Of a stretch of DNA of 64,000 nt, positions 49,644 through 62,774 are shown one piece after another (position 1 is the stretch's first letter; each line of letters begins with the position of its first letter). The notes beneath the pieces were generated by a model that saw only the letters and a program-made list of their open reading frames with translations, made no database searches and was not told where the DNA came from. This DNA is from a virus. The stretch lies in IMG/VR virus record IMGVR_UViG_3300043774_000134, positions 1 through 64,000 of that record. One strand, 5' to 3'. Made by a program: the position numbers and the translations under genes.

Positions 49644-50039
49644 TTAAAGACTGTTTATTGTCACATCTGAAATTACCTGAATAATTCCAATAGCAGGTGT
49701 CCAAACAACATCATCACTTGTTCTAATTGCTTGTAGATCAAAACTTAGTTCTGCTGATATTGACTGATTGTTTTCTGTTCCCCATGTTTCTGTAATATTG
49801 GCATCTGCTGTCACAGTAACTGATCCATTATTTACAGAAATATCTAAAGAATCTGAAGAATCTGTTTTTGAATTAAATGCTGTTGCAGAAAATGTCCAAT
49901 CAGAAAGATCTAAAAATGTTGTTTCATCATTTTCAAGAAACTGAAACTCAAGTGACGAGGTATCTCCACGAACAACACGCCACTTAACCTGTGCTGGATC
50001 TGCACCAATAAACTCGTCAGGACAACAAGCATTAGTCAT
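49644..50039 (-). CDS. BppU-like small baseplate protein
   Basis: This 131-residue protein includes the same upper-baseplate-type pattern as its neighbour (KWRVVRGDTSSLEFQFLENDETTFLDLSDWTFSA). Its N-terminus is unusual (MTNACCPDEF). It shares one base with the 791-residue gene upstream. Probably a fibre-attachment subunit. Two adjacent genes with related BppU-type domains suggest duplication. Confidence 0.6.
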   Translation of the reverse strand: MTNACCPDEFIGADPAQVKWRVVRGDTSSLEFQFLENDETTFLDLSDWTFSATAFNSKTDSSDSLDISVNNGSVTVTADANITETWGTENNQSISAELSFDLQAIRTSDDVVWTPAIGIIQVISDVTINSL

Positions 50040-52414
50040 TACACACCATCCAGAGCTATGTAATCACCAGAAATGTGGAAGTTATCTTCCGCGTTCAGGG
50101 TTACAGGCTGAGTTGATGTGAAAGGTACGTTGTACGCAGAGTTCCCACTTGCATCAATACTCTTCAATACCACTCTAGATTCACCAGCTGCAACGTGTCC
50201 AAACATTGGATAGTCACGACCAGTAGAAATGTCGTGGTAGCAGCCAGCTGCGAACTGGTAGTTGTACTTGGAAGGGAAAGGAAGGTCTACGTAGTATTGT
50301 CCAGTTCCAAAGTTAGTGATGTTGTCCATATCAACGTCAATTCTGAAGTGAACCATTGGACCAGTCTTTACATAAGAACCAGTAAACAGCGGAGCACCAG
50401 TAAAGGTTGGCTGAGTACCCAGCGTTCCACCAACGACGGTAAACGAAGTGTCTCCACCTAAGTCTCCAATAGTTGCAATCTGATTTTCTGGTTGGTTGTT
50501 TCCTAAGAATTCTCCACCTTCATTACCGCCTTGAATAATAACATCTTGATCTGAAGAAACGTATAAATCATTCTCATAGTTAGCAACACTTTGAACCAGT
50601 AGACCACCCATTCCTGGGCCATATAGGTATCCATCTGAGTTAAACTCCCAGAAATTATCATAGGTTGGTTCATTGGTGAATGTGTAGGTATCTCCTGTTA
50701 CAAAGCTTAGTCCAGTTGCTGTAACAGTTGCTAGACCTTCAGTTGGGCTGTTAAGTGTAACTGCGGCTATTTCAAAATCGGTACTCTCAACATTAACTTT
50801 GTATCCAACCTCAATATTTACTGGCATAGAAGTTATAAACTCTGCGTTGCTTGTTTCATTTAAGTTTTGATAGCTATTTTCAATTCTTGTTGGTCTTGTA
50901 CGAATTGAAACTTCTCTGGCACTATCAGAAACATAGACATGGTTTCTTTCTCCACCAATAATAACTTTTGCAATTGACTCATCTATTTCACCACCAGCAC
51001 GAATGTGGATGTGGTTTGGGTCAGTTGGGTCAATAACAAGGTACTGATCATTGGCGTATAGGTCTGCGTCTGGAACCAATTCCATAGTACCAGCACCAAG
51101 TCCATCGCCAGAAGCTGTACCAGCACCAATAATCTGTACGCCATCAAATGTAATGTCTCCAAGACCTGTTGCTGCTGTAACGTCTGCAATAGTTGCAACT
51201 CTGTTGGTTGCATCAGGAGTAAGCTCTGCGTCTCCCCAGCCAATGTAGACGTTTCCATCTCCATCGCTGCCAGGAAACAGTGTTATGTCTCTAGCAGAAC
51301 GAAGTGATAGATCGTCCTGTGGAGTTGCAATGCGAGCAGTGTTAGTTGAAGTTCTTGTAAAGGTAATGAAGTCATCGCCGTCACCGTCCTTGATGGCTAC
51401 TGGGAGAACAAGGTCTGTGTCTGATGTAGTTCCAGAGTTTCCTGTGTCTAACTCTGCTCCGTAGTTGTCGTCGCCATCGTTAACATTTATTGACATGTAG
51501 GTCATGTAGGTTTTTGTGGTGTCAGAGTCTTGGTCTGCTGCAAAACCAATTCGGTAAGGACCAGCAGGTAGAGCTTCATTGATACTTAATGACTCAATAA
51601 CCTCTTGGGAACCCTGTGCAGTGTAAGAAACGGTTACCTTGTTAGTAGAGGCTGTTGGGTCATATGCAAATCTAACTCTGTAAAGTCCACTCTCTGGAAT
51701 ACTAACGTCTCCAGCTGCGGAAGTGGTGCGACCAAAAAGTTTTAGGTCTAAGCAATCAAACTGAGCAGCGATTCTTGATGAGTTTGTCGCATAATCCCAC
51801 TCTGGGTTATCGCCATCTGAATAAACACATACACCAATATTGTTGCACTCGGTGTTGGCATCAAAGATAAACTCAACAACTACAGAGCTGTCCTCTGGAA
51901 TAGTAAAGTCTGTAAAGACTGGGTAGGAAGTAGCTCCATCTGATTCGTCTGCATTCTGAAACCAAAGGCCGTTAGAGTTCCAACCAAAGTGTGTGTTTAG
52001 GTCTGGAAGATGGGTTGTTCCCTCTCCCCAGGTAAGGAAGTATGCAGCAGGACGAATGTTTCCAGTGGTTTGAATAGTTCCATCTGGGAACTCTAGTCTT
52101 CCGTCAGGACGGAATGTCCACTCGTAACTAAAACCTTCGTTATCGTCGTTACTTGAAATTCTTACTTCATCTTTTGCAGAGATAGCTACATCATCTCCAT
52201 ATGCACGAATAAACACATCATCTGCTGCCTCGATATTGATGTCGCAGTCTGAACCTACAGAATCTTCATCACGAAGAGTACGAATAGTCATGTCGTGGTC
52301 TGTGATAGTCATAAAGCTGCCGTCACCACCGTCATCAATGAACTCGAAGTCAGCGATATCGCCGTTTCCAGCTCCTGCTGGACCAGGGAAGGGTACAATT
52401 TTAATAACAGCCAT
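50039..52414 (-). CDS. Large fibre/baseplate decoration protein
   Basis: This 791-residue protein is the first gene after the strong minus-strand promoter. It starts with a short collagen-like piece (PFPGPAGAGNGD). A strand-rich segment with repeated short Asp-rich units (DINIEAADDVFIRAYGDD) follows, then LEFPDGTIQTTG as in other fibre N-domains, then beta-sandwich modules. The end (YYVDLPFPSKYNYQFAAGCYHDISTGR) resembles bacteriophage fibre tips. Receptor binding is likely; no enzyme motif seen. Confidence 0.7.
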   Translation of the reverse strand: MAVIKIVPFPGPAGAGNGDIADFEFIDDGGDGSFMTITDHDMTIRTLRDEDSVGSDCDINIEAADDVFIRAYGDDVAISAKDEVRISSNDDNEGFSYEWTFRPDGRLEFPDGTIQTTGNIRPAAYFLTWGEGTTHLPDLNTHFGWNSNGLWFQNADESDGATSYPVFTDFTIPEDSSVVVEFIFDANTECNNIGVCVYSDGDNPEWDYATNSSRIAAQFDCLDLKLFGRTTSAAGDVSIPESGLYRVRFAYDPTASTNKVTVSYTAQGSQEVIESLSINEALPAGPYRIGFAADQDSDTTKTYMTYMSINVNDGDDNYGAELDTGNSGTTSDTDLVLPVAIKDGDGDDFITFTRTSTNTARIATPQDDLSLRSARDITLFPGSDGDGNVYIGWGDAELTPDATNRVATIADVTAATGLGDITFDGVQIIGAGTASGDGLGAGTMELVPDADLYANDQYLVIDPTDPNHIHIRAGGEIDESIAKVIIGGERNHVYVSDSAREVSIRTRPTRIENSYQNLNETSNAEFITSMPVNIEVGYKVNVESTDFEIAAVTLNSPTEGLATVTATGLSFVTGDTYTFTNEPTYDNFWEFNSDGYLYGPGMGGLLVQSVANYENDLYVSSDQDVIIQGGNEGGEFLGNNQPENQIATIGDLGGDTSFTVVGGTLGTQPTFTGAPLFTGSYVKTGPMVHFRIDVDMDNITNFGTGQYYVDLPFPSKYNYQFAAGCYHDISTGRDYPMFGHVAAGESRVVLKSIDASGNSAYNVPFTSTQPVTLNAEDNFHISGDYIALDGV

Positions 52415-52960: not shown

Positions 52961-52966
52961 ATTATA
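52961..52966 (-). promoter_or_regulatory. Candidate -10 of the membrane-protein gene
   Basis: TATAAT on the minus strand, first base at 52966, 15 bp from the ATG at 52951. No convincing -35 is seen. Confidence 0.4.
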
Positions 52967-52982
52967 TCGTATGTTTTATAAG

Positions 52983-53003
52983 TTATCCACACCCTGTTGA
53001 TAA
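52983..53003. promoter_or_regulatory. DnaA-box pair
   Basis: TTATCCACA (52983-52991), a perfect consensus DnaA box, is followed after 3 bp by TGTTGATAA (52995-53003), an inverted box with one change. Confidence 0.6.
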
Positions 53004-53172
53004 CATATAACTAATTAAGCTCGCTTTTAGTCGGCGGTAAATTTCGGCGCCGAGAAGTACCCCATATACCTGTCCAAACAAGATGAAACATCCAAATGGA
53101 CAAATAAATATGATATCGAAGTATCGGAAAATAACAATATATCCCCCATATCGGAATATCCAGATATTGTGC

Positions 53173-53265
53173 TATCCTTATATCGACCCCAGTCATGCCA
53201 CAGGTTCGGAAACCAGCATAAACCCCAAATAGGATTGCTCTCTAGTAATAGGGAGCTTTCTTATT
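53173..53265 (+). ncRNA. Possible short untranslated RNA ending in an intrinsic terminator
   Basis: An extended -10 (TGCTATCCT, -10 at 53173-53178) predicts a start near 53185. A perfect-loop hairpin (53236-53255, 8 pairs, GTAA tetraloop) followed by TTTCTTATTT would end the RNA near 53265. No coding frame is evident. The terminator is clear; the RNA is conjectural, since no good -35 is present. Confidence 0.3.
53236..53265 (+). terminator. Plus-strand intrinsic terminator in the divergence region
   Basis: Stem GCTCTCTA/TAGGGAGC (one T-G pair) with GTAA loop, then TTTCTTATTT. No plus-strand gene stands before it in the window, so it either ends a small RNA or insulates the plus-strand genes. 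Confidence 0.7.
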
Positions 53266-53342
53266 TGATCAATAGAAGTAACACTAATGAGTGATTGATC
53301 AAGACAGCCTTTGGCTGTTATGTACCCTCGAAAATTAAGCTA

Positions 53343-53351
53343 TGTTATAAT
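53343..53351 (+). promoter_or_regulatory. Extended -10 promoter of a leaderless gene
   Basis: TGTTATAAT with -10 at 53346-53351. The ATG at 53358 lies 12 bp from the first base of the -10, so transcription should begin at the start codon. Confidence 0.6.
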
Positions 53352-53357
53352 TGAGAT

Positions 53358-53576
53358 ATGGAAAATAAAGAAAATGAACCAGAAGATGTTAAATTCCTTG
53401 ATCTATTTAATCCAAACTCACCAAGATCAAATGAGGATGAAATTAAAGCTAGACTTGATATTTGTAACCAATGTCCTTACTTAGGAAAGAAACTAAAGCG
53501 TTGTGGTCTATGTGGTTGTTTTATGTCATTGAAGACTACTTTGTTAGAAGCTAAATGTCCTATTGACAAATGGTAA
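53358..53576 (+). CDS. Small four-cysteine zinc protein, leaderless
   Basis: This 72-residue protein has an acidic N-terminal half and a C-terminal zinc-ribbon: CNQCPYLG ... CGLCGCFM ... CPIDKW. The ATG is at the predicted transcription start and there is no ribosome site. The cysteine pattern (CxxC x12 CxxCxC) resembles small phage proteins of unknown function sometimes linked to modification or transcription. It is the first plus-strand gene. Confidence 0.75.
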   Translation: MENKENEPEDVKFLDLFNPNSPRSNEDEIKARLDICNQCPYLGKKLKRCGLCGCFMSLKTTLLEAKCPIDKW

Positions 53577-53583
53577 GCATCTT

Positions 53584-53592
53584 TGCTATAAT
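53584..53592 (+). promoter_or_regulatory. Extended -10 promoter of a leaderless gene
   Basis: TGCTATAAT with -10 at 53587-53592. The next ATG (53599) is again exactly 12 bp from the first base of the -10. Confidence 0.6.
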
Positions 53593-53598
53593 AGATCT

Positions 53599-53730
53599 AT
53601 GTGTAATGGAAATTGCTCTTGTGATACCCCCGAAGTTTTAAAATATGATCTATCAGAAGATTGCTTATGCATCTTTGATGGAAACCCAGACTTTTGTATT
53701 TGTATTGACATAAGTGAACCCACAGCGTAA
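53599..53730 (+). CDS. Cys-rich micro-protein, leaderless
   Basis: A 43-residue frame (MCNGNCSCDTPEV...) contains seven cysteines, two of the clusters as CLC and CIC, and is acidic. Too short for a family call. Its existence is supported by the promoter at the fixed leaderless distance and by the GGAG ribosome site of the next gene right after its stop. It could bind a metal ion. Confidence 0.6.
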   Translation: MCNGNCSCDTPEVLKYDLSEDCLCIFDGNPDFCICIDISEPTA

Positions 53731-53740
53731 GGAGAGAAAC

Positions 53741-53914
53741 GTGGATAAACCAAAAGATAAACTTTATCAGGATAAGACCTGGCTTGCTACTGAGCTTGAA
53801 ACTAAATCTACCCGAAAAATTGCTAAAGAGCAAAGGGTTAGCTATAAGCTTATTAATGTATGGGCTTTGAACTATGGACTCATTGAGCGATCAGAAGAAA
53901 CAATCCTTGCATGA
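53741..53914 (+). CDS. Small HTH DNA-binding protein (GTG start)
   Basis: The 57-residue product starts at GTG 53741, preceded by GGAGAG 4 bp away; upstream in-frame ATG 53714 lies inside the previous gene and has no ribosome site. It contains a homeodomain-like HTH (STRKIAKEQRVSYKLINVWALNYGLI). It could be a regulator of the divergent region. Its stop overlaps the next ATG (ATGA). Confidence 0.7.
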   Translation: MDKPKDKLYQDKTWLATELETKSTRKIAKEQRVSYKLINVWALNYGLIERSEETILA

Positions 53915-54024
53915 GGGATAAATTGTCTACCCTGCAAAAAATTCTAATATCTATAGCAGGACTTGGCACTATTGTGTTGTGCAATCTTGTTGTGATCTTT
54001 ATTGCAAAAGCATTTGGTGCTTAA
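53911..54024 (+). CDS. Small single-helix membrane protein
   Basis: A 37-residue frame (MRDKLSTLQK...) has one long hydrophobic helix (ILISIAGLGTIVLCNLVVIFIA). Its ATG overlaps the TGA of the HTH gene, so translation is coupled. Function unknown; it could affect membrane or other phages' entry. Confidence 0.55.
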   Translation: MRDKLSTLQKILISIAGLGTIVLCNLVVIFIAKAFGA

Positions 54025-54193
54025 TCTGAAAAATTTTGTATTTTCCAATTTGAAGATTTTCTGAATAATTTTTAGAGATGTACGATACATGCCTCACAGA
54101 AATAAATCAACAAAAATATAGTGAGCACACTGAAAGTGACTATACGCACCCAAAACTTTCTCAAACTATTTTTTGACTTATCGGCGTGTCGCA

Positions 54194-54222
54194 TTGCTAA
54201 TGTCAGTGGTTACTGATTAGAT
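54194..54222 (+). promoter_or_regulatory. Promoter, TGTCAGTGG class
   Basis: TTGCTA, 17-bp spacer beginning ATGTCAGTGG, then TTAGAT. Confidence 0.6.
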
Positions 54223-54270
54223 ATAGATATAGAAAGAAACCAAGCAAAACCTAAAAGAATGGAAAACAAA

Positions 54271-54390
54271 ATGTTCGGAATCACAAAGTCAGAAGGCTAC
54301 TACTGGGTACGCGTTGGACAGAGCACTACTAAGGTTGGTCACAAGACTTTCCGTTCAGCACTTGCTCACCTTATCACTGGCATTGCCTAA
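54271..54390 (+). CDS. Hypothetical 39-residue protein
   Basis: It starts MFGITKSEGYYWVRVG and ends in a helix (FRSALAHLITGIA). The leader AGAATGGAAAACAAA also precedes two later genes (54818, 54965), so the ATG inside it (54259, in frame) is probably part of the ribosome region. A start at 54259 would add MENK. Basic and small; function unknown. Confidence 0.55.
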   Translation: MFGITKSEGYYWVRVGQSTTKVGHKTFRSALAHLITGIA

Positions 54391-54419
54391 GTTTCACTGT
54401 CATAGGCTAACGATAAACT
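54391..54419 (+). promoter_or_regulatory. Promoter, related class
   Basis: GTTTCA, 17-bp spacer with TGTCATAGG, then TAAACT. It abuts the stop codon of the previous gene. Confidence 0.55.
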
Positions 54420-54443
54420 AAAGACATAAAGAAAGGATAACTA

Positions 54444-54587
54444 ATGTATATAGTAGAAGTAATCAAGAAGGGAATCGGAGTCATTGAGACTTTCGGTTCA
54501 CGCTCTAGGGCAGAAGCAGAAGCACAGAAGAATGTGTATGCTCTCATGTATCCTGAGTGTGTAGTAATGATGGAGTGGAGTAACTAA
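54444..54587 (+). CDS. Hypothetical 47-residue protein
   Basis: ATG follows GAAAGGATAACTA, the common leader of this arm. The product (MYIVEVIKKGIGVIETF...) has a small beta-hairpin-like N-terminus, an Ala/Glu-rich helix (RAEAEAQKNVYALM) and ends MMEWSN. No family recognised. Confidence 0.65.
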   Translation: MYIVEVIKKGIGVIETFGSRSRAEAEAQKNVYALMYPECVVMMEWSN

Positions 54588-54627
54588 GGGTAGGGGATCC
54601 CCTCCCTATACCCCCAACATATGGGCC

Positions 54628-54679
54628 TGTGTATAACTTATCCACAATTTGGCGCCGCCCTGTGTATAACTTGTCCACA
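54628..54679. promoter_or_regulatory. Cluster of four DnaA-box-like sites
   Basis: TGTGTATAA (54628), TTATCCACA (54638), TGTGTATAA (54661) and TTGTCCACA (54671) form two inverted pairs around a GGCGCC at 54651. Both the general and the high-GC actinobacterial forms of the box are present. Confidence 0.65.
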
Positions 54680-54749
54680 GGTTACGCATACGTCTAAGAT
54701 CCCTCGAAAAAAATCTTTTATTTATTTTTGCGTTTGTCGGCGTGTCGCG

Positions 54750-54778
54750 TAGGTAATGTCGTAGGTGTGTGATTAGAT
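54750..54778 (+). promoter_or_regulatory. Promoter, related class
   Basis: TAGGTA, 17-bp spacer with TGTCGTAGG, then TTAGAT; 3 bp after a CGGCGTGTCG copy. Confidence 0.5.
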
Positions 54779-54817
54779 ATAGATATAGAAACAAACACAG
54801 AAAGAATGGAAAACAAA

Positions 54818-54904
54818 ATGGAAATCGTAATCGTAATCATGTGGTCGCTTGCTCTCGCACCATTCGCATACATTGCTGTATCGTACTGGTGGAGTGGTCG
54901 CTAG
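54818..54904 (+). CDS. Membrane micro-protein (28 residues)
   Basis: This is an almost entirely hydrophobic single helix (MEIVIVIMWSLALAPFAYIAV) ending in SYWWSGR. The leader AGAATGGAAAACAAA matches that of 54271. The ATG 12 bp upstream is in frame (MENK-). Small membrane peptides of this kind are common in phage early regions; role unknown. Confidence 0.5.
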   Translation: MEIVIVIMWSLALAPFAYIAVSYWWSGR

Positions 54905-54932
54905 TTTCACTGTCAGACCCTACTGCTATACT
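54904..54932 (+). promoter_or_regulatory. Promoter, related class
   Basis: GTTTCA, 17-bp spacer with TGTCAGACC, then TATACT with TGC before it. Confidence 0.6.
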
Positions 54933-54964
54933 CTAACTAACAAACAAAAAGAATGGATAACAAA

Positions 54965-55090
54965 ATGTCAGAAGAAACTCGAATGCTAACAAGCCTTATC
55001 ATTGGTGGAGGTCTTTGTGCCTTCGTCTTCATCGGTATCATCGCAATGGCTATTGCGGCTACCTACTACGGAAAGAAAGAGGGTAAGTAA
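54965..55090 (+). CDS. Small membrane protein (41 residues)
   Basis: MSEETRML is followed by a long membrane helix (LIIGGGLCAFVFIGIIAMAIAA) and a positively charged tail (YYGKKEGK), which predicts the tail inside the cell. It uses the AGAATGGATAACAAA leader, with an in-frame ATG 12 bp upstream. The downstream gene begins one base after its stop. Confidence 0.6.
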   Translation: MSEETRMLTSLIIGGGLCAFVFIGIIAMAIAATYYGKKEGK

Positions 55091-55091
55091 T

Positions 55092-55238
55092 ATGACTACC
55101 ACTACTAAGACTTGCTACCTATGCTATACCCCTGGTATGCCTGATGTACCTGCTGTAGAGTATTCGCCCTATGGCTACCCTGCCTGTGCTAGCCACTATG
55201 CTAGTGACTTTGATGAGTTTGCTAGCGATTATTCGTAA
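55092..55238 (+). CDS. Small zinc-ribbon-like protein (48 residues)
   Basis: The ATG at 55092 follows GAGGG of the preceding gene's end. The product has CYLC near the N-terminus and CASH later, giving a possible CxxC...CxxH metal site, and an acidic Tyr/Asp tail. Frame upstream of this ATG lies inside the membrane-protein gene and is not used. Confidence 0.6.
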   Translation: MTTTTKTCYLCYTPGMPDVPAVEYSPYGYPACASHYASDFDEFASDYS

Positions 55239-55282
55239 TCACGGCGTGTCGCCTTGACATTCCCCCGATTTTGGGCGCCGCC

Positions 55283-55303
55283 TGTGGATAACTTTGTGGA
55301 TAA
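55283..55303. promoter_or_regulatory. Direct pair of DnaA-box-like sites
   Basis: TGTGGATAA at 55283-55291 and 55295-55303 are two exact reverse-orientation boxes 12 bp apart, right after GGCGCC (55274). Confidence 0.6.
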
Positions 55304-55307
55304 CTCT

Positions 55308-55323
55308 GTTACGGAACCGTTAT
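55308..55323 (+). promoter_or_regulatory. GTTAC-N6-GTTAT operator-like pair
   Basis: Units begin at 55308 and 55319 (11 bp); 69 bp from the -10 at 55377. Confidence 0.5.
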
Positions 55324-55353
55324 AAAATCTTCCCGATTGGTGGAAAAAGTAGG

Positions 55354-55382
55354 GGTCAAATGTCAGTGGGTCGTGTTAGTCT
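55354..55382 (+). promoter_or_regulatory. Promoter, TGTCAGTGG class
   Basis: Poor -35 (GGTCAA), 17-bp spacer with TGTCAGTGG and TGT, then TAGTCT. Confidence 0.55.
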
Positions 55383-55408
55383 GTTTACAGATAGAAAGGA
55401 AAAAGCAA

Positions 55409-55519
55409 ATGGGATTTATGAAAATCATCACCGCTGAAGGTGTACAAGACATTGAGACTATGACGGTTGAGCAATTGCTCGGTCTTCAGGTCGCCCTAAT
55501 GGCAGAAAAAGATAAATAA
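55409..55519 (+). CDS. Hypothetical 36-residue protein
   Basis: The ATG is preceded by GAAAGGAAAAAGCAA. MGFMKIITAEG is followed by a short amphipathic helix (TVEQLLGLQVALMAEKDK). The frame is open upstream, but only this ATG has the ribosome site. No family recognised. Confidence 0.55.
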   Translation: MGFMKIITAEGVQDIETMTVEQLLGLQVALMAEKDK

Positions 55520-55547
55520 CTTTTTTTCGCAAACACGGCGTGTCGTC

Positions 55548-55576
55548 TTGACAAATCGTAGAATGTGTGATTAGAT
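55548..55576 (+). promoter_or_regulatory. Consensus-like promoter
   Basis: Perfect TTGACA, 17 bp, TTAGAT; 2 bp after a CGGCGTGTCG copy. It drives the leader with micro-ORFs and the 54-residue gene. Confidence 0.65.
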
Positions 55577-55601
55577 AGTAATATAAATAAACAGAGAGAG
55601 A

Positions 55602-55661
55602 ATGAGCCTCAGAGAATGAGCCTTAGCAAATAATCCCGATAGGGTGAGCCTAAGCAAATAA
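55602..55661 (+). other. Three tandem leader micro-ORFs
   Basis: ATG 55602 (MSLRE), ATG 55616 (MSLSK) and GTG 55644 (MSLSK) each have five codons before a stop; the first and second overlap (ATGA). The Leu codons differ (CTC, CTT, CTA) while the peptide stays similar. They lie in the leader of the gene at 55705, and AG/CT-rich ends of the leader could pair. Confidence 0.4.
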
Positions 55662-55704
55662 GTCTCAGAGCAAATAAGTCTCTCTCACTAAGAAAGGTAA
55701 ACTA

Positions 55705-55869
55705 ATGGAATATGTAAACAAGACTCCCCTAATGGATGAGGTATTGGAAGCCGTTATGGCTAAGTATGGCTACGAGACTAAGTCTCAGGCATACCCCTTC
55801 GTAATCGGTATGGCTACCGAATGTATCTCAGTCGAATCGTTTAGCCGTATGCTAGACGCACTAAAGTAA
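55705..55869 (+). CDS. Hypothetical 54-residue protein
   Basis: The ATG follows AAGAAAGGTAAACTA. The product is helical (MDEVLEAVMAKYGY, FSRMLDALK) with a single Cys. Its long leader with micro-ORFs sets it apart from the neighbours and suggests post-transcriptional control. Function unknown. Confidence 0.6.
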   Translation: MEYVNKTPLMDEVLEAVMAKYGYETKSQAYPFVIGMATECISVESFSRMLDALK

Positions 55870-55886
55870 AGAAAGGAAAACTCAAA

Positions 55887-56024
55887 ATGAAAATTTGTGA
55901 AGTTTGTGAAAAGTCTGTAGAGACTGTGTTCGTGTCCGCTTATGGCGAATGGCTTATCTGTAAGCCTTGCCTTATCTCTGAGCGTTTCGCAATTATGCGT
56001 AGCGAGGGTGAGTTTGCTAGTTAG
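55887..56024 (+). CDS. Small zinc-ribbon protein, paralogue group
   Basis: The 45-residue product has CEVC at residues 4-7 and CKPC at 25-28, a full four-Cys zinc ribbon. It resembles the genes at 56498 and 58035 (M..CE(I/V)C ... C..C). The leader is GAAAGGAAAACTCAAA. It could bind protein or nucleic acid; target unknown. Confidence 0.65.
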   Translation: MKICEVCEKSVETVFVSAYGEWLICKPCLISERFAIMRSEGEFAS

Positions 56025-56112
56025 CAGACTACCCCCAGGGATCCCCGACATATACCAATTTTAGAATACACGGCGTGTCGGTTTGCGTATTCCCAAAAAA
56101 TCGGCGCCCCCC

Positions 56113-56131
56113 TGTGGATAACTTATCAACA
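56113..56131. promoter_or_regulatory. Inverted DnaA-box-like pair
   Basis: TGTGGATAA (56113) and TTATCAACA (56123) follow GGCGCC at 56103. Confidence 0.5.
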
Positions 56132-56189
56132 GTTTACGTTGGACTACAAAAATGCCTCAAACTTTTTTCAGACTTATCGGCGTGTCGTG

Positions 56190-56218
56190 GTTTCATTGTC
56201 GGTGGGTCGTGCTAGGCT
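56190..56218 (+). promoter_or_regulatory. Promoter, TGTCGGTGG class
   Basis: GTTTCA, 17-bp spacer with TGTCGGTGG, TGC, TAGGCT. Confidence 0.65.
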
Positions 56219-56240
56219 GAGGGTAACGAAAGGAAAACTA

Positions 56241-56447
56241 ATGGAAACTAGAACACAAAAGGCTAAGGGCTTCGTCGGTAAGACTGTCCGCTTCACTAGC
56301 AAGCCTCGCCCATTCGGTCCAGCCTACACCTATGAGGGTCTGGTCGTAAAGGTAAAGGGTCTGAACGCTGACGGCTCAGAGATTCACTTTGAGGACGGTC
56401 GAAAGACTTTCTACAACTGGGGAGTGTCCGCCGAGATTCTCTCTTAG
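56241..56447 (+). CDS. Basic SH3-like hypothetical protein
   Basis: The 68-residue product starts at the ATG behind CGAAAGGAAAACTA; frame upstream is untranslated leader. METRTQKAKGFVGKTVRF is followed by short strands (YEGLVVKVKGLNADGSEIHFEDGRKTFYNW), the order of a small beta barrel such as SH3 or KOW. It is basic, so nucleic-acid binding is possible. Confidence 0.65.
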   Translation: METRTQKAKGFVGKTVRFTSKPRPFGPAYTYEGLVVKVKGLNADGSEIHFEDGRKTFYNWGVSAEILS

Positions 56448-56471
56448 AGTGTCGGTGGCTACCCCTATACT
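56443..56471 (+). promoter_or_regulatory. Promoter, TGTCGGTGG class
   Basis: CTTAGA overlapping the previous stop codon, 17-bp spacer with TGTCGGTGG, then TATACT. No TG before the -10. Confidence 0.65.
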
Positions 56472-56497
56472 GTAATCATAACGAAAGGAAAACTAAA

Positions 56498-56668
56498 ATG
56501 GAATGTGAAATCTGTGACTACCGTCAGGCACTTGAGGTGCTTCAGTATGACACCGAAATTGCTGAGTTGGAGTTTGTGGCTGTGTGCCAGAACTGCCACG
56601 ACGCTATCGTGTGCGATAAGTTGGAAACTCAATTCGCTATCGTTGATATCTTCCCGATTGCAGACTAG
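56498..56668 (+). CDS. Small zinc-ribbon protein, paralogue group
   Basis: The 56-residue product has CEIC (residues 3-6) and CQNC (30-33), a longer middle part, and an acidic end IVDIFPIAD. The end resembles INIFPDG of the 58035 gene, supporting common descent. Leader: CGAAAGGAAAACTAAA. Confidence 0.65.
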   Translation: MECEICDYRQALEVLQYDTEIAELEFVAVCQNCHDAIVCDKLETQFAIVDIFPIAD

Positions 56669-56676
56669 GAGAAAAA

Positions 56677-56808
56677 ATGGAACGCTCACCGCTTTATTAT
56701 TTTGTCCGTGGCGTGTGTCGGTTTATTGTTCAAATCGGCATAGCCATAGGCGTATTGTTTTCTGCCTATTGGTTCATTCTTCTGTTTTGGGCAACCTTCT
56801 ACCCCTAG
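56677..56808 (+). CDS. Small membrane protein (43 residues)
   Basis: The ATG is 8 bp after the stop of the zinc-ribbon gene, with AGGAGA before it. One or two hydrophobic stretches (FIVQIGIAIGVLFSAYWFILLFW) form the protein, after a short basic beginning. Co-transcribed with the upstream zinc-ribbon gene. Function unknown. Confidence 0.6.
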   Translation: MERSPLYYFVRGVCRFIVQIGIAIGVLFSAYWFILLFWATFYP

Positions 56809-56873
56809 GAAAATGGATCGACCCTATCGGCGTGTCGGCTTGACAAATGTCGGTGGGGGCGGCGCCGCCCACC

Positions 56874-56889
56874 GTTACCTATTTGTTAT
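56874..56889 (+). promoter_or_regulatory. GTTAC-N6-GTTAT operator-like pair
   Basis: Units at 56874 and 56885; 59 bp before the -10 at 56933. Confidence 0.65.
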
Positions 56890-56909
56890 TAAGGAATACG
56901 AAAAAAATG

Positions 56910-56938
56910 CCTCAAATGTCAGAGTGGTGTGGTAGGGT
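56910..56938 (+). promoter_or_regulatory. Promoter of leaderless endonuclease gene
   Basis: CCTCAA, 17-bp spacer with TGTCAGAGTGG, then TAGGGT; ATG 12 bp from the first -10 base. Confidence 0.6.
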
Positions 56939-56944
56939 TTAGGT

Positions 56945-57304
56945 ATGAAGAAATGCTCGAAGTGCGAACAGACCCTCGCTCACTCCTCGTTCTCTCCCTC
57001 CTCTGGTGGGAAGTATCTGCGACCTGAGTGTCGTGACTGTGGTCGCAAGTTGGCTAATGAGCGTCGTGCTTTGCGTAAAGAGTATGGCTACCCCGAATCA
57101 GGACACACCTGCCCTATCTGTCTAAAGTCAGAAGATGAACTCAAGGGGACAGGTGGCAACGCTTCCATTTGGGTAGTAGACCACGACCACGGTACAGGTG
57201 CATTCCGTGGACACATCTGCCACAACTGCAACCGTGGCTTGGGTGTGTTCCAAGATGACCTAGACCGTATCGCTAGGGCAATGGAATATTTGCAAAACGC
57301 CTAG
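56945..57304 (+). CDS. Endonuclease VII-type (HNH/beta-beta-alpha) nuclease
   Basis: This 119-residue protein has DHDH at 79-82 ([24 protein letters not shown]), the core of the recombination endonuclease VII family. A zinc site comes from C56/C59 and C92/C95. Two more Cys pairs (C4/C7 and C29/C32) form an N-terminal ribbon. It would cleave branched DNA or act as a freestanding HNH nuclease. No ribosome site is present; the ATG is at the predicted +1. A second junction-type nuclease is the resolvase at 78-419. Confidence 0.88.
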
Positions 57305-57344
57305 CCAGGACTTGACAGTTCGCTAGGGATCGGCGCCCCCCTTC

Positions 57345-57360
57345 GTTACCAAAACGTTAT
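57345..57360 (+). promoter_or_regulatory. GTTAC-N6-GTTAT operator-like pair
   Basis: Units at 57345 and 57356; 59 bp before the -10 at 57404. Confidence 0.65.
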
Positions 57361-57380
57361 TAAGTAAGTTACGAAAAACC

Positions 57381-57409
57381 TTGTAAATGTCGGAGGCTCG
57401 TGTTAGTCT
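57381..57409 (+). promoter_or_regulatory. Promoter, TGTCGGAGG variant
   Basis: TTGTAA, 17-bp spacer with TGTCGGAGG and TGT, then TAGTCT. Confidence 0.65.
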
Positions 57410-57433
57410 TGTATTACAACGAAAGGATAACTA

Positions 57434-57655
57434 ATGATTTTTGAGCCTGTCTTCGGTGAAGACTTTGAGATTGTCGCCTACCTTGACGACCTCGGCAACG
57501 AGTGGACTGTTGAGGAAACCCAGGACTACTGGAATGTTTCTGGCAACTCGCTTGAGTCGCAAGACTATGAGCCTGACGAGTCTTGGTGGGATGCCGACGC
57601 TATTGCCTCTGCTGGCTGGGGAACCGACGAGGACTACGGATACTACGGAGAGTAG
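57434..57655 (+). CDS. Extremely acidic protein without Lys, Arg or His
   Basis: The 73-residue product has 21 Asp/Glu and no basic residue at all. It has several Trp/Tyr (SWWDAD, DYGYYGE), and the net charge near -21 is in the range of DNA-mimic proteins. Such proteins can block host restriction, nucleoid or repair enzymes; this is inference from composition. The leader is CGAAAGGATAACTA. No known family visible. Confidence 0.75.
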   Translation: MIFEPVFGEDFEIVAYLDDLGNEWTVEETQDYWNVSGNSLESQDYEPDESWWDADAIASAGWGTDEDYGYYGE

Positions 57656-57667
57656 GCGAGGGCGCCG

Positions 57668-57696
57668 ATCTCGCTGTCGGTGGCTCATGTTATAGT
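57668..57696 (+). promoter_or_regulatory. Promoter of a leaderless gene
   Basis: ATCTCG, 17-bp spacer with TGTCGGTGG and TGT, then TATAGT; GGCGCC begins 30 bp before the -10; ATG 12 bp from the -10 start. Confidence 0.65.
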
Positions 57697-57702
57697 CATT
57701 AT

Positions 57703-57924
57703 ATGAACGAATACGAAACCCTTGAAATCCTGTCCGAATACGAAGCAAAGGCTAACTATGATGCCTTACTAGACGAGTGCTACCCTATCGTGTCTATTGG
57801 TTACTCAGAGTTTTATCCCTCAACGGTACTCAAAGAGTGTGACCCAATCGCATATCGCTGTGGCTTTGCTGACTATGTAGACTCATTAGCAGAAGAGGGA
57901 ACTATGGTCGAGGGCTACTGCTAG
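57703..57924 (+). CDS. Acidic hypothetical protein, leaderless
   Basis: 73 residues from the ATG at 57703 (MNEYETLEILSEYEAKANY...). The open frame continues upstream, but that part is the promoter and the GGCGCC element. The protein is rich in Glu, Asp, Tyr and holds four Cys spread through the chain. It looks alpha-helical. No family recognised. Confidence 0.65.
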   Translation: MNEYETLEILSEYEAKANYDALLDECYPIVSIGYSEFYPSTVLKECDPIAYRCGFADYVDSLAEEGTMVEGYC

Positions 57925-57945
57925 GGGGGGCGGCGCCGCCGCTTC

Positions 57946-57961
57946 GTTACCATTTTGTTAT
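57946..57961 (+). promoter_or_regulatory. GTTAC-N6-GTTAT operator-like pair
   Basis: Units at 57946 and 57957; 59 bp before the -10 at 58005. Confidence 0.65.
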
Positions 57962-57981
57962 ACGAAACGCCCTCTAAATGC

Positions 57982-58010
57982 CCTAGAATGTCGGTGGTCA
58001 CTGCTACACT
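57982..58010 (+). promoter_or_regulatory. Promoter, TGTCGGTGG class
   Basis: CCTAGA, 17-bp spacer with TGTCGGTGG and TGC, then TACACT. Confidence 0.65.
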
Positions 58011-58034
58011 GTTTATATAACGAAAGGAAAACTA

Positions 58035-58181
58035 ATGCCAGAATGTGAAGTATGCCAGCACCGTGATTCGGTCTACATGGTAGATGTTGACTATGGTCGC
58101 ATTATTCTTGTTTGTGCTACCTGTATCAACATCTTCCCCGATGGAGTAATCGTGGCTGAGGCAGATACCCGACTCATTTGA
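58035..58181 (+). CDS. Small zinc-ribbon protein, paralogue group
   Basis: The 48-residue product has CEVC (4-7) and CATC (27-30) and the ending INIFPDGVIVAEAD. It is the closest relative of the 56498 protein. Leader: CGAAAGGAAAACTA. The promoter of the next gene overlaps its stop codon. Confidence 0.65.
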   Translation: MPECEVCQHRDSVYMVDVDYGRIILVCATCINIFPDGVIVAEADTRLI

Positions 58182-58204
58182 GTGTCAGTGGTCACTGCTA
58201 AAAT
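58176..58204 (+). promoter_or_regulatory. Promoter, TGTCAGTGG class
   Basis: ATTTGA (containing the stop codon of the previous gene), 17-bp spacer with TGTCAGTGG and TGC, then TAAAAT. Confidence 0.65.
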
Positions 58205-58227
58205 AGAAACATAACGAAAGGAAAACT

Positions 58228-58398
58228 ATGGAATACAAATATGTAACTGTATCAGTCTCACTGCTTGAGAACTTGGTGCGACTGAATCGTGAAGACCAGG
58301 CACGATGCAAAGAAATGGGTCTTCGTGAAATGGAACAATGGCACGAGGGTCGTGCTATGGCTTTTGAGTTTATTCTCTCTGAGTTTGCAAACAACTAA
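58228..58398 (+). CDS. Hypothetical helical protein (56 residues)
   Basis: MEYKYVTVSVSLLENL begins with a strand, then charged helices (RLNREDQARCKEMG, REMEQWHEGRAMAFEFILSEF). Leader CGAAAGGAAAACT. A coiled-coil-like partner-binding role is possible; none is shown. Followed by a second gene without a new promoter. Confidence 0.65.
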   Translation: MEYKYVTVSVSLLENLVRLNREDQARCKEMGLREMEQWHEGRAMAFEFILSEFANN

Positions 58399-58416
58399 CG
58401 AAAGGCAAGAACTAAA

Positions 58417-58599
58417 ATGATGACACGCAAAGACTATGTATTTACCGCTGATGTAATCAACGATATGTATCACTTTTCACACGCTACCGATAAAGAAATT
58501 GAGAATATGTCAATCGCTTTTGCTGATTACTTTAGCAATGACAATGAGCGTTTTGACCGTAAGATTTTCTTCAACGCTTGCTACCGAGAGAAGGACTAA
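58417..58599 (+). CDS. Hypothetical 60-residue protein
   Basis: MMTRKDYVFTADVINDMYHF... is a mixed, aromatic-rich protein with an acidic middle (DKEIENMSIAFADYFSNDNERFD). The ribosome site is CGAAAGGCAAGAACTAAA. It is in the same transcript as the gene before it, and its stop directly precedes the next ATG. Confidence 0.7.
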   Translation: MMTRKDYVFTADVINDMYHFSHATDKEIENMSIAFADYFSNDNERFDRKIFFNACYREKD

Positions 58600-58728
58600 A
58601 TGAGTATGCTCCCATTGTTCGCATTTATGTTTGGGGTCATTGTGTTTGACACGGTAGTGATTCTCTACCTGTATGCCAAATACAAGAATGCTAAGTATGA
58701 GGCATATCTAAACCGACCACCCTTCTAG
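58600..58728 (+). CDS. Small membrane protein (42 residues)
   Basis: The ATG directly follows the TAA of the preceding gene (coupled translation). One membrane helix (LFAFMFGVIVFDTVVILYLY) is followed by a Lys/Tyr-rich tail (AKYKNAKYEAYLNRPPF), predicted inside the cell. Function unknown. Confidence 0.6.
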   Translation: MSMLPLFAFMFGVIVFDTVVILYLYAKYKNAKYEAYLNRPPF

Positions 58729-58749
58729 GAGGGGGCGGCGCCCCGATCC

Positions 58750-58765
58750 GTTATCGGAATGTTAT
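58750..58765 (+). promoter_or_regulatory. GTTAT-N6-GTTAT operator-like pair
   Basis: Units at 58750 and 58761; 59 bp before the -10 at 58809. Confidence 0.65.
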
Positions 58766-58785
58766 TAAGTATCTTACGAAAAATG

Positions 58786-58814
58786 CCGTGAATGTCAGTG
58801 GTCAATGCTAAGAT
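58786..58814 (+). promoter_or_regulatory. Promoter of a leaderless gene
   Basis: CCGTGA, 17-bp spacer with TGTCAGTGG and TGC, then TAAGAT; ATG at 58821, 12 bp from the -10 start. Confidence 0.65.
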
Positions 58815-58820
58815 TGAGTT

Positions 58821-58982
58821 ATGAAGAAGAAACCAGCACCCAAGAAGATTCAGAACACCGCATACATTATTGCTATGCGAGGTCTGCGTAGTTCCAATGC
58901 GGCTACTACGCACGACAATCGACCTAATCGTCAGAGGACTCGTTCAGCAGTCAAGCAGGTTGCTATTCGGGAGTATGCCTGA
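58821..58982 (+). CDS. Very basic small protein, leaderless
   Basis: The 53-residue product starts MKKKPAPKKIQN and has NRPNRQRTRSAVKQ, about a third Lys/Arg. This suggests nucleic-acid or ribosome binding. There is no ribosome site; the ATG is at the predicted +1. The tRNA-Asp gene starts 14 bp after its stop, so both may lie on one transcript. Confidence 0.65.
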   Translation: MKKKPAPKKIQNTAYIIAMRGLRSSNAATTHDNRPNRQRTRSAVKQVAIREYA

Positions 58983-58996
58983 TAGAATAGGATAAT

Positions 58997-59070
58997 GGCT
59001 CTGTAGCTCAGTTGGTTAGAGCACTACCCTGTCACGGTAGGGGTCGCCAGTTCAAGTCTGGTCAGAGTCG
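58997..59070 (+). tRNA. tRNA-Asp (anticodon GTC)
   Basis: All four stems form: acceptor GGCTCTG/CAGAGTC (one G-T pair), D arm GCTC/GAGC, anticodon stem CTACC/GGTAG with CTGTCAC loop, T arm GCCAG/CTGGT (last pair G-T) with TTCAAGT. Discriminator G; CCA is not encoded. Confidence 0.93.
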
Positions 59071-59168
59071 CAAATCGAACAAAGGAGTTACTATGTAACA
59101 GAGTAAACCAGCCACACTTACCGAAACCTAGGTGTAAAAAAGTAGGGGTGTGGTGTAGTAAATGTTAT
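59071..59168 (+). other. Spacer between tRNAs
   Basis: No gene seen. CCACAC (about 59110) and GTGTGG (about 59149) can pair across a 32-base loop and may aid processing or termination. Confidence 0.3.
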
Positions 59169-59243
59169 TCCCCTTTAGCTCAACGGCAGAGCAACGAGCT
59201 GTTAACTCGTAGGTTCTTGGTTCGAATCCAAGAGGGGGAGCCA
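59169..59243 (+). tRNA. tRNA-Asn (anticodon GTT)
   Basis: Acceptor TCCCCTT/AGGGGGA, D arm GCTC/GAGC, anticodon stem ACGAG/CTCGT with CTGTTAA loop, T arm CTTGG/CCAAG with TTCGAAT. Discriminator G followed by encoded CCA (59241-59243), unlike the tRNA-Asp. Confidence 0.93.
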
Positions 59244-59259
59244 GGATCCAAGGGCGCCG

Positions 59260-59288
59260 ACCTCACTGTCAGTGGTAGGTGTTACGAT
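59260..59288 (+). promoter_or_regulatory. Promoter, TGTCAGTGG class
   Basis: ACCTCA, 17-bp spacer with TGTCAGTGG and TGT, then TACGAT; GGCGCC begins 30 bp before the -10. Confidence 0.65.
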
Positions 59289-59314
59289 AGTATTACTTAG
59301 GAAAGGAAAAAATC

Positions 59315-59494
59315 ATGGCTTATGTATCTGAGTATGGTAACTATGGTGGTGAGGGAGTAATTGTATTCCCAGACTATCAACTTACCCCCGAACAATGGGA
59401 TGAGTTAGATGTTCTGCCAGACAACGACAAAATGTCGTATGTTAAGGGTATACTAGATGAAAACGAACTAGGATATATGGAGTTTAACGACTAA
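59315..59494 (+). CDS. Hypothetical acidic protein (59 residues)
   Basis: The ATG follows GAAAGGAAAAAATC. The product (MAYVSEYGNYGGEGVIVF...) has an N-terminal strand, then LTPEQWDELDVLPDNDKMSYVKGIL and an acidic end, resembling small helix-hairpin phage proteins. Start of a four- or five-gene set joined by overlaps. Function unknown. Confidence 0.7.
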   Translation: MAYVSEYGNYGGEGVIVFPDYQLTPEQWDELDVLPDNDKMSYVKGILDENELGYMEFND

Positions 59495-59505
59495 TGGGAG
59501 AAGCA

Positions 59506-59685
59506 ATGAAGCGTGAATCATACATTCCACCTAAAGGAATGACACAAAAAGAGTTCCTAACTATAGTTGCAAATGACCTAGTAGATATGGTAGTCTTGAA
59601 ACAGGTAGACTTTACCTATGTGCCAAGTGTTCGTGACTTTATTATCAAACATTCTAAATCCCGCCACAGAAAGGTAGCAAAGTGA
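59506..59685 (+). CDS. Hypothetical basic protein (59 residues)
   Basis: ATG 59506 is chosen because GGGAG lies 5 bp upstream; an in-frame ATG at 59494 overlapping the previous stop is possible (63 residues). The protein has IPPKGMTQKEFLTIVANDLVDMVV and ends KHSKSRHRKVAK. The basic tail hints at nucleic-acid contact. Unknown family. Confidence 0.65.
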   Translation: MKRESYIPPKGMTQKEFLTIVANDLVDMVVLKQVDFTYVPSVRDFIIKHSKSRHRKVAK

Positions 59686-59825
59686 AAAGCAATCCATTTG
59701 AGGGAGACGAGCAGGGTATGGAAATTATGGATGCCCTTGACGAATACTATAAGAATCCCCAAGACTACACATTCCGTGACCTTGAGGAAATCTTCCAAGA
59801 CCGTGACCCATTCGAGTTTCTCTAA
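59682..59825 (+). CDS. Hypothetical acidic protein (GTG start)
   Basis: The GTG at 59682 overlaps the stop of the preceding gene (GTGA) and follows AGAAAGG. The 47-residue product (KSNPFEGDEQGMEIMDAL...) is helical and acidic (FRDLEEIFQDRDPFEFL). Coupled translation supports it. Function unknown. Confidence 0.6.
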   Translation: MKSNPFEGDEQGMEIMDALDEYYKNPQDYTFRDLEEIFQDRDPFEFL

Positions 59826-59833
59826 GGAGCAAA

Positions 59834-60046
59834 ATGAAAAAGTATGATATCACTGCTACTGTCAAGCTGTATGACTTTTGTATGCCTGACGACTTTGACC
59901 CTGAGAACAATGACGGTGGAGACATCCTAGTCGCCCTTGATATGTATGTAGATGAAAAGACATATCAAACAGGATGGCGAACATTCGAAGAGACTATGAA
60001 GGTGTCTGGCGATTGGGTTAGTGCTACCTATAAGGTAGTCGAGTAG
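59834..60046 (+). CDS. Hypothetical beta-rich protein (70 residues)
   Basis: The ATG is preceded by AAGGAGC. The protein alternates strands (YDITATVKLYDF, ILVALDMYV, WVSATYKVVE) and has an acidic loop (DDFDPENNDGGD). Its stop overlaps the GTG of the next gene. No family recognised. Confidence 0.7.
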   Translation: MKKYDITATVKLYDFCMPDDFDPENNDGGDILVALDMYVDEKTYQTGWRTFEETMKVSGDWVSATYKVVE

Positions 60047-60171
60047 TGGAGTTTTTCCTACTACTCGTGATATCGGTATTGTTGATAGGAGTTATTTTGT
60101 TAATCATCTCTCCCCTGATTTTTACCGTGCTGTTTATCATTGAGAGTGTTTTGCAGAGACGAAGACACTAG
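60046..60171 (+). CDS. Small membrane protein (GTG start)
   Basis: The GTG overlaps the TAG of the preceding gene (TAGTG). The 41-residue product is a long hydrophobic segment, perhaps two helices (EFFLLLVISVLLIGVILLII, IFTVLFIIESVL), ending QRRRH. The basic end predicts a cytoplasmic C-terminus. Confidence 0.55.
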   Translation: MEFFLLLVISVLLIGVILLIISPLIFTVLFIIESVLQRRRH

Positions 60172-60186
60172 GAAAGATCGGCGCCG

Positions 60187-60215
60187 CTTTCACTGTCAGT
60201 GGGTACTGATACAGT
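60187..60215 (+). promoter_or_regulatory. Promoter, TGTCAGTGG class
   Basis: CTTTCA, 17-bp spacer with TGTCAGTGG and TGA, then TACAGT; GGCGCC begins 30 bp before the -10. Confidence 0.65.
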
Positions 60216-60238
60216 TGTATTACAACGAAAGGGAAAAA

Positions 60239-60367
60239 ATGCCGAACATGAAACTCACACCAACTAGGGCTGGACTTATTTTTGAGTGTGTAGACTGTGG
60301 CTCAAAGTTTGAGGCACTTGGCACAGAGGCAGACGAACACGAATGTATGACCGTCTTCTCATTCTAA
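60239..60367 (+). CDS. Small zinc-finger-like protein (42 residues)
   Basis: The ATG is behind ACGAAAGGGAAAAA. The protein contains CVDC and, 15 residues later, HEC, a possible CxxC...H-x-C zinc site (ECVDCGSKFEALG ... EADEHEC). The in-frame sequence upstream is leader and promoter. Target unknown. Confidence 0.65.
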   Translation: MPNMKLTPTRAGLIFECVDCGSKFEALGTEADEHECMTVFSF

Positions 60368-60389
60368 TGTCGGTGGCTACTGCTAAACT
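60361..60389 (+). promoter_or_regulatory. Promoter, TGTCGGTGG class
   Basis: ATTCTA overlapping the previous stop, 17-bp spacer with TGTCGGTGG and TGC, then TAAACT. Confidence 0.65.
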
Positions 60390-60413
60390 GAAACCCTACG
60401 AAAGGAAAAACTA

Positions 60414-60890
60414 ATGGGCTTGGATATGTATCTTGAGGTTCGTCGCACACTTCGTACCTACACTTGGGATGACCAGTTTGAGAAAATTGACAACCAGTTT
60501 GGGCAGTCTCTTGTTGCTCTTGCTGGTATGGAACACTTGGCTGGTCAAGAAAACTCTAGCGTCAGCATTGAGGTCAATGCAATCTATTGGCGTAAGGTAA
60601 ACTCTGTTCACCAGTGGTTTGTTGATAACATCGGTGGTGGTGTAGACGAGTGTCAGCGTATGTATGTCAAACGCAAAGACCTAGAGGACTTGCGTGACTT
60701 GGTGAAGGACACTCTCATTCACCGCAACAAGGCTAGCGTTACTCTGCCAACGCAGGGTGGATTCTTCTTTGGCTCAACCGAGTATGACGAATACTATTGG
60801 GGAGATTTGGAATACACGGCTAAGGAGTTAGACCGTGTGCTTGCCAACGCTAAGGAAAGCGATGACTTCTTCTATCAGGCTTCCTGGTAG
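60414..60890 (+). CDS. Conserved phage protein of unknown function
   Basis: This 158-residue protein starts MGLDMYLEVRR. It continues with NAIYWRKVNSVHQWFVDNI, then LEDLRDLVKDTL, and the strongly patterned TQGGFFFGSTEYDEYYWGDLEYTAKELDRVL. I recognise this pattern from many phage and plasmid hypothetical proteins, but no function is known to me. Leader CGAAAGGAAAAACTA. Single-gene transcript ending before a UUCG-capped hairpin. Confidence 0.8.
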   Translation: MGLDMYLEVRRTLRTYTWDDQFEKIDNQFGQSLVALAGMEHLAGQENSSVSIEVNAIYWRKVNSVHQWFVDNIGGGVDECQRMYVKRKDLEDLRDLVKDTLIHRNKASVTLPTQGGFFFGSTEYDEYYWGDLEYTAKELDRVLANAKESDDFFYQASW

Positions 60891-60920
60891 CAAGACGAGG
60901 GGTGCGACTCGATAACGCAT

Positions 60921-60940
60921 GACCCTTCGGGGTCGGCGCC
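60921..60940 (+). terminator. UUCG-capped hairpin next to GGCGCC
   Basis: GACCC-TTCG-GGGTC (60921-60934), a very stable tetraloop hairpin, joins directly to GGCGCC at 60935. There is no U-tract. It lies right after the 158-residue gene, so termination is likely. Confidence 0.55.
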
Positions 60941-60945
60941 GATCC

Positions 60946-60961
60946 GTAACCTAATTGTTAC
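60946..60961 (+). promoter_or_regulatory. GTAAC-N6-GTTAC operator-like pair
   Basis: Units at 60946 and 60957, here a true dyad; 59 bp before the -10 at 61005. Confidence 0.65.
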
Positions 60962-60981
60962 TTACGATATGTCTATTAAGA

Positions 60982-61010
60982 CTCTCACTGTCGGTGGCTG
61001 GTGTTATAGT
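60982..61010 (+). promoter_or_regulatory. Promoter of a leaderless gene
   Basis: CTCTCA, 17-bp spacer with TGTCGGTGG and TGT, then TATAGT; ATG at 61017, 12 bp from the -10 start. Confidence 0.65.
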
Positions 61011-61016
61011 AAAGGT

Positions 61017-61739: not shown

Positions 61740-61773
61740 CGGAGGGCGGCGCCCCCCCGATCCAAATCCCTAT

Positions 61774-61789
61774 GTTACGATTAGGTAAC
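61774..61789 (+). promoter_or_regulatory. GTTAC-N6-GTAAC operator-like pair
   Basis: Units at 61774 and 61785; 65 bp before the -10 at 61839. Confidence 0.6.
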
Positions 61790-61815
61790 AAAAGGCTGAA
61801 AAGTGCCATTTGGAC

Positions 61816-61844
61816 TTGCTATTGTCGGTGGTTACTGTCATACT
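61816..61844 (+). promoter_or_regulatory. Promoter, CATACT subclass
   Basis: TTGCTA, 17-bp spacer with TGTCGGTGG and TGT, then CATACT. Confidence 0.65.
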
Positions 61845-61909
61845 TGATATATCAGCAAGACCGCTGGTAAATAAGTTGGCTGGCTCGCCAACAGAAAATG
61901 AGGAAGCAA

Positions 61910-62050: not shown

Positions 62051-62122
62051 TCTAACCCATTGTGCTGGGCATCACCCTAAACTGCCCACTCCAAATCAAA
62101 AGCCAAATGAAAGGAAAACATA

Positions 62123-62572: not shown

Positions 62573-62611
62573 TGGAAAATGACCTGAGTATGTCTAAGTA
62601 AACTGCTCAAG

Positions 62612-62665: not shown

Positions 62666-62697
62666 TGGGCGAGGGCGGCGCCCCGATCAGTCGCCAT

Positions 62698-62768: not shown

Positions 62769-62774
62769 TAGGAT

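Follow-up and report, generated by a model that had tools for sequence, protein, structure and literature searches.

DnaA is best known as the initiator of chromosome replication; among phages, lambda is the main documented case of its use. Here we analyse DnaA-box-like nonamers in the 64,000-nucleotide stretch formed by bases 1–64000 of IMG/VR virus record IMGVR_UViG_3300043774_000134 (the window), the full record being a linear fragment of 66,558 bp. As in the lambda pR/pO-oriLambda region (PMC3985674, PMC8203912), DnaA boxes lie near promoters; binding of host DnaA and its effect on transcription and replication have been shown for lambda only. Lambda differs in that a few boxes stand next to its origin and it encodes O and P initiators, whereas the phage studied here has several exact pairs before successive early promoters and one over a leftward promoter. 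There is also a likeness to dnaA autoregulation (PMC8203912), in which TTATCCACA sites lie near the promoter, and the phage carries the 3-nt-spaced tandem pair that precedes dnaA in a candidate host family. In contrast to that system, the phage pairs are many, are also inverted or 21–22 bp apart, and precede unrelated genes. Bacterial oriC with its basal unwinding system (PMC6669920, PMC8287927) shares consensus DnaA boxes with this phage and a compact AT-rich array with its relatives, but the phage boxes lack a DnaA-trio, are dispersed over genes and are not accompanied by dnaA or dnaN. Distant relatives among the Stanwilliamsviridae (Wakanda, BillNye, Blueeyedbeauty and Samisti12) have clustered TTATCCACA boxes too, although theirs are gathered in one gap and we saw no dispersed promoter pairs in them. 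Finally, datA-type titration loci resemble the phage clusters in having several DnaA boxes away from oriC; datA itself is one chromosomal locus, and its function depends on IHF. Searches of the open-licence literature turned up no account of such arrays for this family of phages.

Our preferred reading, which we hold tentatively, is that the nonamers are host-DnaA operator sites on the early and leftward promoters, with titration of DnaA as a consequence. The sites more likely let the phage read or soak up DnaA than start replication here. An earlier note had described ten nonamers in four clusters at 52983–56131, mostly as inverted pairs; all ten are present, and they form five pairs:

52983–53003: convergent DnaA-box pair TTATCCACA-ccc-TGTTGATAA (52983, plus strand, TTATCCACA; 52995, minus strand, TTATCAACA), lying over the −35 of the putative leftward promoter
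54628–54646: divergent DnaA-box pair TGTGTATAA-c-TTATCCACA (54628, minus strand, TTATACACA; 54638, plus strand, TTATCCACA)
54661–54679: divergent DnaA-box pair TGTGTATAA-c-TTGTCCACA (54661, minus strand, TTATACACA; 54671, plus strand, TTGTCCACA)
55283–55303, minus strand: tandem DnaA-box pair with a 12-bp period (55283 and 55295, both TTATCCACA), 57 nt upstream of a promoter element
56113–56131: divergent DnaA-box pair TGTGGATAA-c-TTATCAACA (56113, minus strand, TTATCCACA; 56123, plus strand, TTATCAACA), 65 nt upstream of a promoter element

All five pairs are inverted except 55283/55295, which is a direct repeat. The divergence of transcription that the boxes had been said to surround is genuine and lies at ∼52.95 kb. 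To its right, TTRTCCACA occurs six times, where 0.29 would be expected and none of 300 simulations gave more than 2; in the left arm (52.9 kb) it is absent against 1.3 expected. Both expectations come from simulated sequence of the same trinucleotide composition. When up to one mismatch is allowed, the whole window holds 29 matches against 20, a mild enrichment only, so the signal is carried by the exact nonamers and their clustering.

The boxes do stand beside GGCGCC, as the earlier note had remarked, but this adjacency is not specific. All 15 copies of GGCGCC in the window lie from 53046 rightwards (53046–63872), and the word marks most right-arm intergenic regions, with or without boxes, both here and in the relative G001; different GC-rich words fill the same slot in other phages. 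We therefore rejected GGCGCC as part of a DnaA element. It was also rejected as a strong terminator, because the folding was mostly no better than that of shuffled sequences, with z below −2 in one of five stretches.

The boxes are a trait of the lineage. We defined the early arm as running from the open reading frame at 52649 to the DUF932 gene, or to the end of the record, and compared 11 records. TTATCCACA occurs 52 times in these arms against 0.76 expected, is present in all 11 and ranks among their most over-represented nonamers; the other leading independent words are CGGCGTGTCG, TGTCRGTGG and the Shine-Dalgarno-like AACGAAAGG, together with a GGCGCC group in two genomes. The boxes are mostly paired, their starts lying 10 (divergent), 12 or 21–22 bp apart, and the pairs are intergenic, often directly after a stop codon, with flanking words that vary between phages. 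Such a pattern fits binding sites and not copies of a mobile repeat. G001 and G003 each have a counterpart of the 55283/55295 pair, placed before the same small gene.

At least 120 viral contigs (viral_contigs collection) match TTATCCACA-N3-TTATCCACA, so this lineage is not alone among phages in carrying DnaA pairs. Very dense arrays were seen at G019:18900–20900 (22 consensus-like boxes in 2 kb), G018:36825–36939 (7 in 83 bp) and G021:51990–52138, on contigs without a demonstrated relationship to this lineage.

The reader of the sites is very probably host DnaA, as the earlier note had supposed. The host itself is likely actinobacterial, since the sole relative of the capsid protein in GTDB genomes (63% identical) sits on a contig of an Actinomycetota metagenome-assembled genome (MAG). 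Within the family of this MAG, 15 of 61 genomes contain TTATCCACA-N3-TTATCCACA, each of them once, and a reversed control motif had no match. In 12 of the 12 cases examined in this candidate host family the tandem pair lies directly upstream of dnaA, and the phage pairs with a 12-bp period are the same unit. A DnaA_C domain (PF08299) was absent from the 12 records tested, several of them fragments, with positive controls. Taken together, the exact consensus, the conservation in 11 of 11 records, the lack of a phage DnaA domain and the tandem pair shared with dnaA support host DnaA well as the probable reader. Both this lineage and several cultured Stanwilliamsviridae contradict the further remark that DnaA boxes are rarely seen in phages with their own DnaE, DnaB and DnaG.

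The placement of the boxes is best seen against the predicted promoters and their associated repeats:

52961–52989, minus strand: putative leftward promoter, with −35 TGGATA (52989–52984, inside a box), a 17-bp spacer and −10 TATAAT (52966–52961)
54201–63960, plus strand: promoter units TGTCRGTGG-N4-TGnTANNNT, ∼20 copies of an unusual type, predicted drivers of the small right-arm genes
54182–56837, plus strand: CGGCGTGTCG, seven copies, several just upstream of the promoter spacer element

A box overlaps the predicted leftward −35 in this phage (G000), in G001 and in G004/L091, and in variant form in G003; boxes lie close upstream of the leftward promoter in G011, G014 and G015. Exact TGTCRGTGG occurs 18 times in the record, one copy lying beyond the window. 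A typical right-arm unit runs GGCGCC, DnaA pair and/or GTTAC-N6-GTTAT, TGTCRGTGG-N4-TGnTANNNT, ribosome site. Across the 11 records, 17 box groups lie 23–91 nt upstream of a predicted promoter element, at distances that show weak helical phasing (p about 0.02–0.04). CGGCGTGTCG is also repeated 10 times within a 15-kb stretch of G018.

Several observations weigh against promoter control by host DnaA. The leftward promoter is free of boxes in G002, G006, G008 and G010, and for about half of the box groups no recognised promoter element lies within 200 nt. The distances from box to promoter vary, unlike those of the GTTAC repeats, and the phasing, besides being weak, was tested after seeing the data, on relatives that are not independent. 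The candidate host, moreover, comes from a single contig of one MAG, which may be misbinned and whose capsid protein is 63% identical.

Under promoter control with titration, one pair would act from its position over the predicted leftward −35 and the others from ∼50–90 bp upstream of the predicted rightward early promoter elements. Host DnaA would bind the pairs and set the activity of these promoters, much in the way that bacterial dnaA promoters are controlled through such sites. Each new copy of the phage DNA would bring further boxes and so drain DnaA, and the drain would alter phage transcription and hold back host initiation. DnaA is an autoregulator and an activator of lambda transcription (PMC8203912, PMC3985674). 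For the present phage, we infer DnaA binding, the direction of its effect and titration from the sites, their conservation and placement, and the absence of a phage DnaA domain. An actinophage lineage that keeps exact promoter pairs amid changing flanks and genes would lend itself to testing whether DnaA acts as a transcription factor in Actinobacteria, and also whether phages exploit DnaA titration.

The alternative that survives best, although we consider it unlikely, is a pure DnaA sponge, in which the boxes have no promoter role and the phage copies titrate host DnaA, stop host replication and free the replication machinery. The many consensus boxes per genome, their dispersal and their variable distance to promoters would suit a sponge, as would the dense arrays on G019 and G018. 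However, a sponge would not have to sit at promoters, whereas the boxes seen here cover the leftward −35 in several phages and adjoin GTTAC repeats. The phage also supplies its own DnaE, DnaB, DnaG, SSB and RecA.

The earlier note had proposed a replication origin beside the strand switch, which would require host DnaA to load helicase at the clusters as a dispersed oriC-like region. This appears improbable, and our analysis does not support it. The cumulative GC skew, suggested as a check, does reach its minimum, or come close to it, around the divergence, both in this record and in several relatives; it also follows the direction of transcription, and so does not discriminate. That boxes are kept in this arm in 11 of 11 records, and that an AT-rich stretch adjoins 52983, would be in keeping with an origin. 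However, there is no compact gene-free box array at 53–56 kb, the pairs being spread between genes at successive promoters over ∼3.1 kb. In the dnaA–dnaN region of the MAG's family, a DnaA box is followed 6–22 nt later by a DnaA-trio, an unwinding element (PMC6669920, PMC8287927), in 11 of 11 usable sequences, against 0 of 268 phage boxes, cultured relatives included.

A more origin-like structure is found elsewhere. Six relatives have a separate compact box array 3–6 kb to the right of DUF932, which is AT-rich (28–39% GC), lies near a convergence of transcription and has a conserved CAGTMASAT word before the box; some of these arrays may not be gene-free, as short open reading frames are possible across them, and the studied record ends before the corresponding position. 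Cultured relatives have clustered DnaA boxes in the following gaps:

Wakanda, 118767–120140
BillNye, 119170–120507
Blueeyedbeauty, 123069–124575
Samisti12, 122611–123947

These gaps are ∼1.3–1.5 kb long with few or no annotated genes (two short ones in BillNye), that of Samisti12 adjoins DUF932, and two of the boxes keep a spacing of 255–256 bp across three genera. A box followed by TTTACC-N4/5-CGTTAC was also seen in the gaps of three genera. We regard the gaps as candidate origins of the cultured Stanwilliamsviridae, and the array beyond DUF932, or its cultured-phage gap, as probably a better origin candidate than 53–56 kb, though it too is without a trio. Since the gaps with clustered boxes belong to Streptomyces phages in culture, the question of the origin can already be put to a laboratory test.

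Decidedly improbable is a copy-number sensor, in which DnaA bound at entry would hold the leftward promoter and modulate the early ones until multiplication of the boxes exhausted it, switching the transcription programme and, at the same moment, blocking host initiation. If this were true, a lytic phage would be using a host master regulator to keep time, and MtrA/GlnR-type sites would supply it with a second host signal. The weakest alternative, recognition of the DnaA-like nonamer by a phage-encoded protein, might draw on the lack of a recognised domain in most small right-arm genes and on the further arm motifs without an assigned reader (CGGCGTGTCG, TGTCRGTGG), but it is very improbable given the exact match to the DnaA consensus, the spacing within pairs, which is the one found before dnaA in a candidate host family, the retention of boxes across phages with different early genes and the lack of an encoded DnaA_C domain.

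A second motif accompanies the boxes that we read as host-DnaA operators:

55308–55323, plus strand: GTTAC-N6-GTTAT direct repeat, MtrA/GlnR-like, adjoining the tandem DnaA pair
56874–56889, plus strand: GTTAC-N6-GTTAT direct repeat, 27 nt upstream of a TGTC promoter element

The 27-nt spacing recurs at 57345, 57946, 58750 and, as GTAAC-N6-GTTAC, at 60946. In the early arms of the 11 records, GTTAY-N6-GTTAY occurs 44 times against 0.80 expected, and the distance from the end of the looser repeat to TGTC is 27 nt in 15 cases, 33 nt in 10, 37–38 nt in 4 and 44 nt in 4, out of 42. By our own count, this spacing would place the repeat near −63, a class I activator position. The repeat, which is of the form GTNAC-N6-GTNAC and above chance at promoters, matches the published MtrA motif (PMC6265350). 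The OmpR-type domain PF00486 was absent from the 12 records; since neither this nor a DnaA_C domain is encoded in them, host proteins are the likely readers of both motifs. This suggests a second host regulator of the MtrA/GlnR type, the two being indistinguishable here. The idea that GTTAC repeats belong to the candidate-host oriC in general was rejected (4 against 1.6 expected in 12 regions). Further GTTAC-N6-GTTAY repeats lie at 37528, upstream of the capsid-protease gene, and at 52512/52528, upstream of the leftward gene 50039–52414.

The left arm, transcribed leftwards, encodes replication proteins (RecA, DnaE, SSB, a DnaG-like primase and a DnaB-like helicase), tail proteins, the capsid protein, the portal and an M23 endolysin. 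The right arm, transcribed rightwards, has many very small genes, two tRNAs (an Rfam search gave nothing else), a GP88 protein and, as read from the sequence only, an HNH endonuclease-like protein. The genes referred to above are:

548–1561: RecA
1871–5146, minus strand: DnaE-like polymerase
5210–5875: SSB
5908–6852: DnaG-like primase
7110–8330: DnaB-like helicase
35066–36190, minus strand: major capsid protein, the query used to find relatives
63993–65015, rightward arm: DUF932 protein

IMG/VR contains 77 relatives of the capsid protein, several of them on records of 90–96 kb. No nucleotide similarity to known phages was found; the closest cultured relatives are Streptomyces phages of the Stanwilliamsviridae (major capsid protein ∼43%, DnaE ∼54–56%, DUF932 ∼52–54%). 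In addition, the early arms of three relatives hold LexA/SOS-box-like sites CGAAC-N4-GTTCG (5 against 0.2 expected), at G006:42495, G006:43246, G011:88537, G010:49446 and G010:50331, most of them near DnaA pairs.

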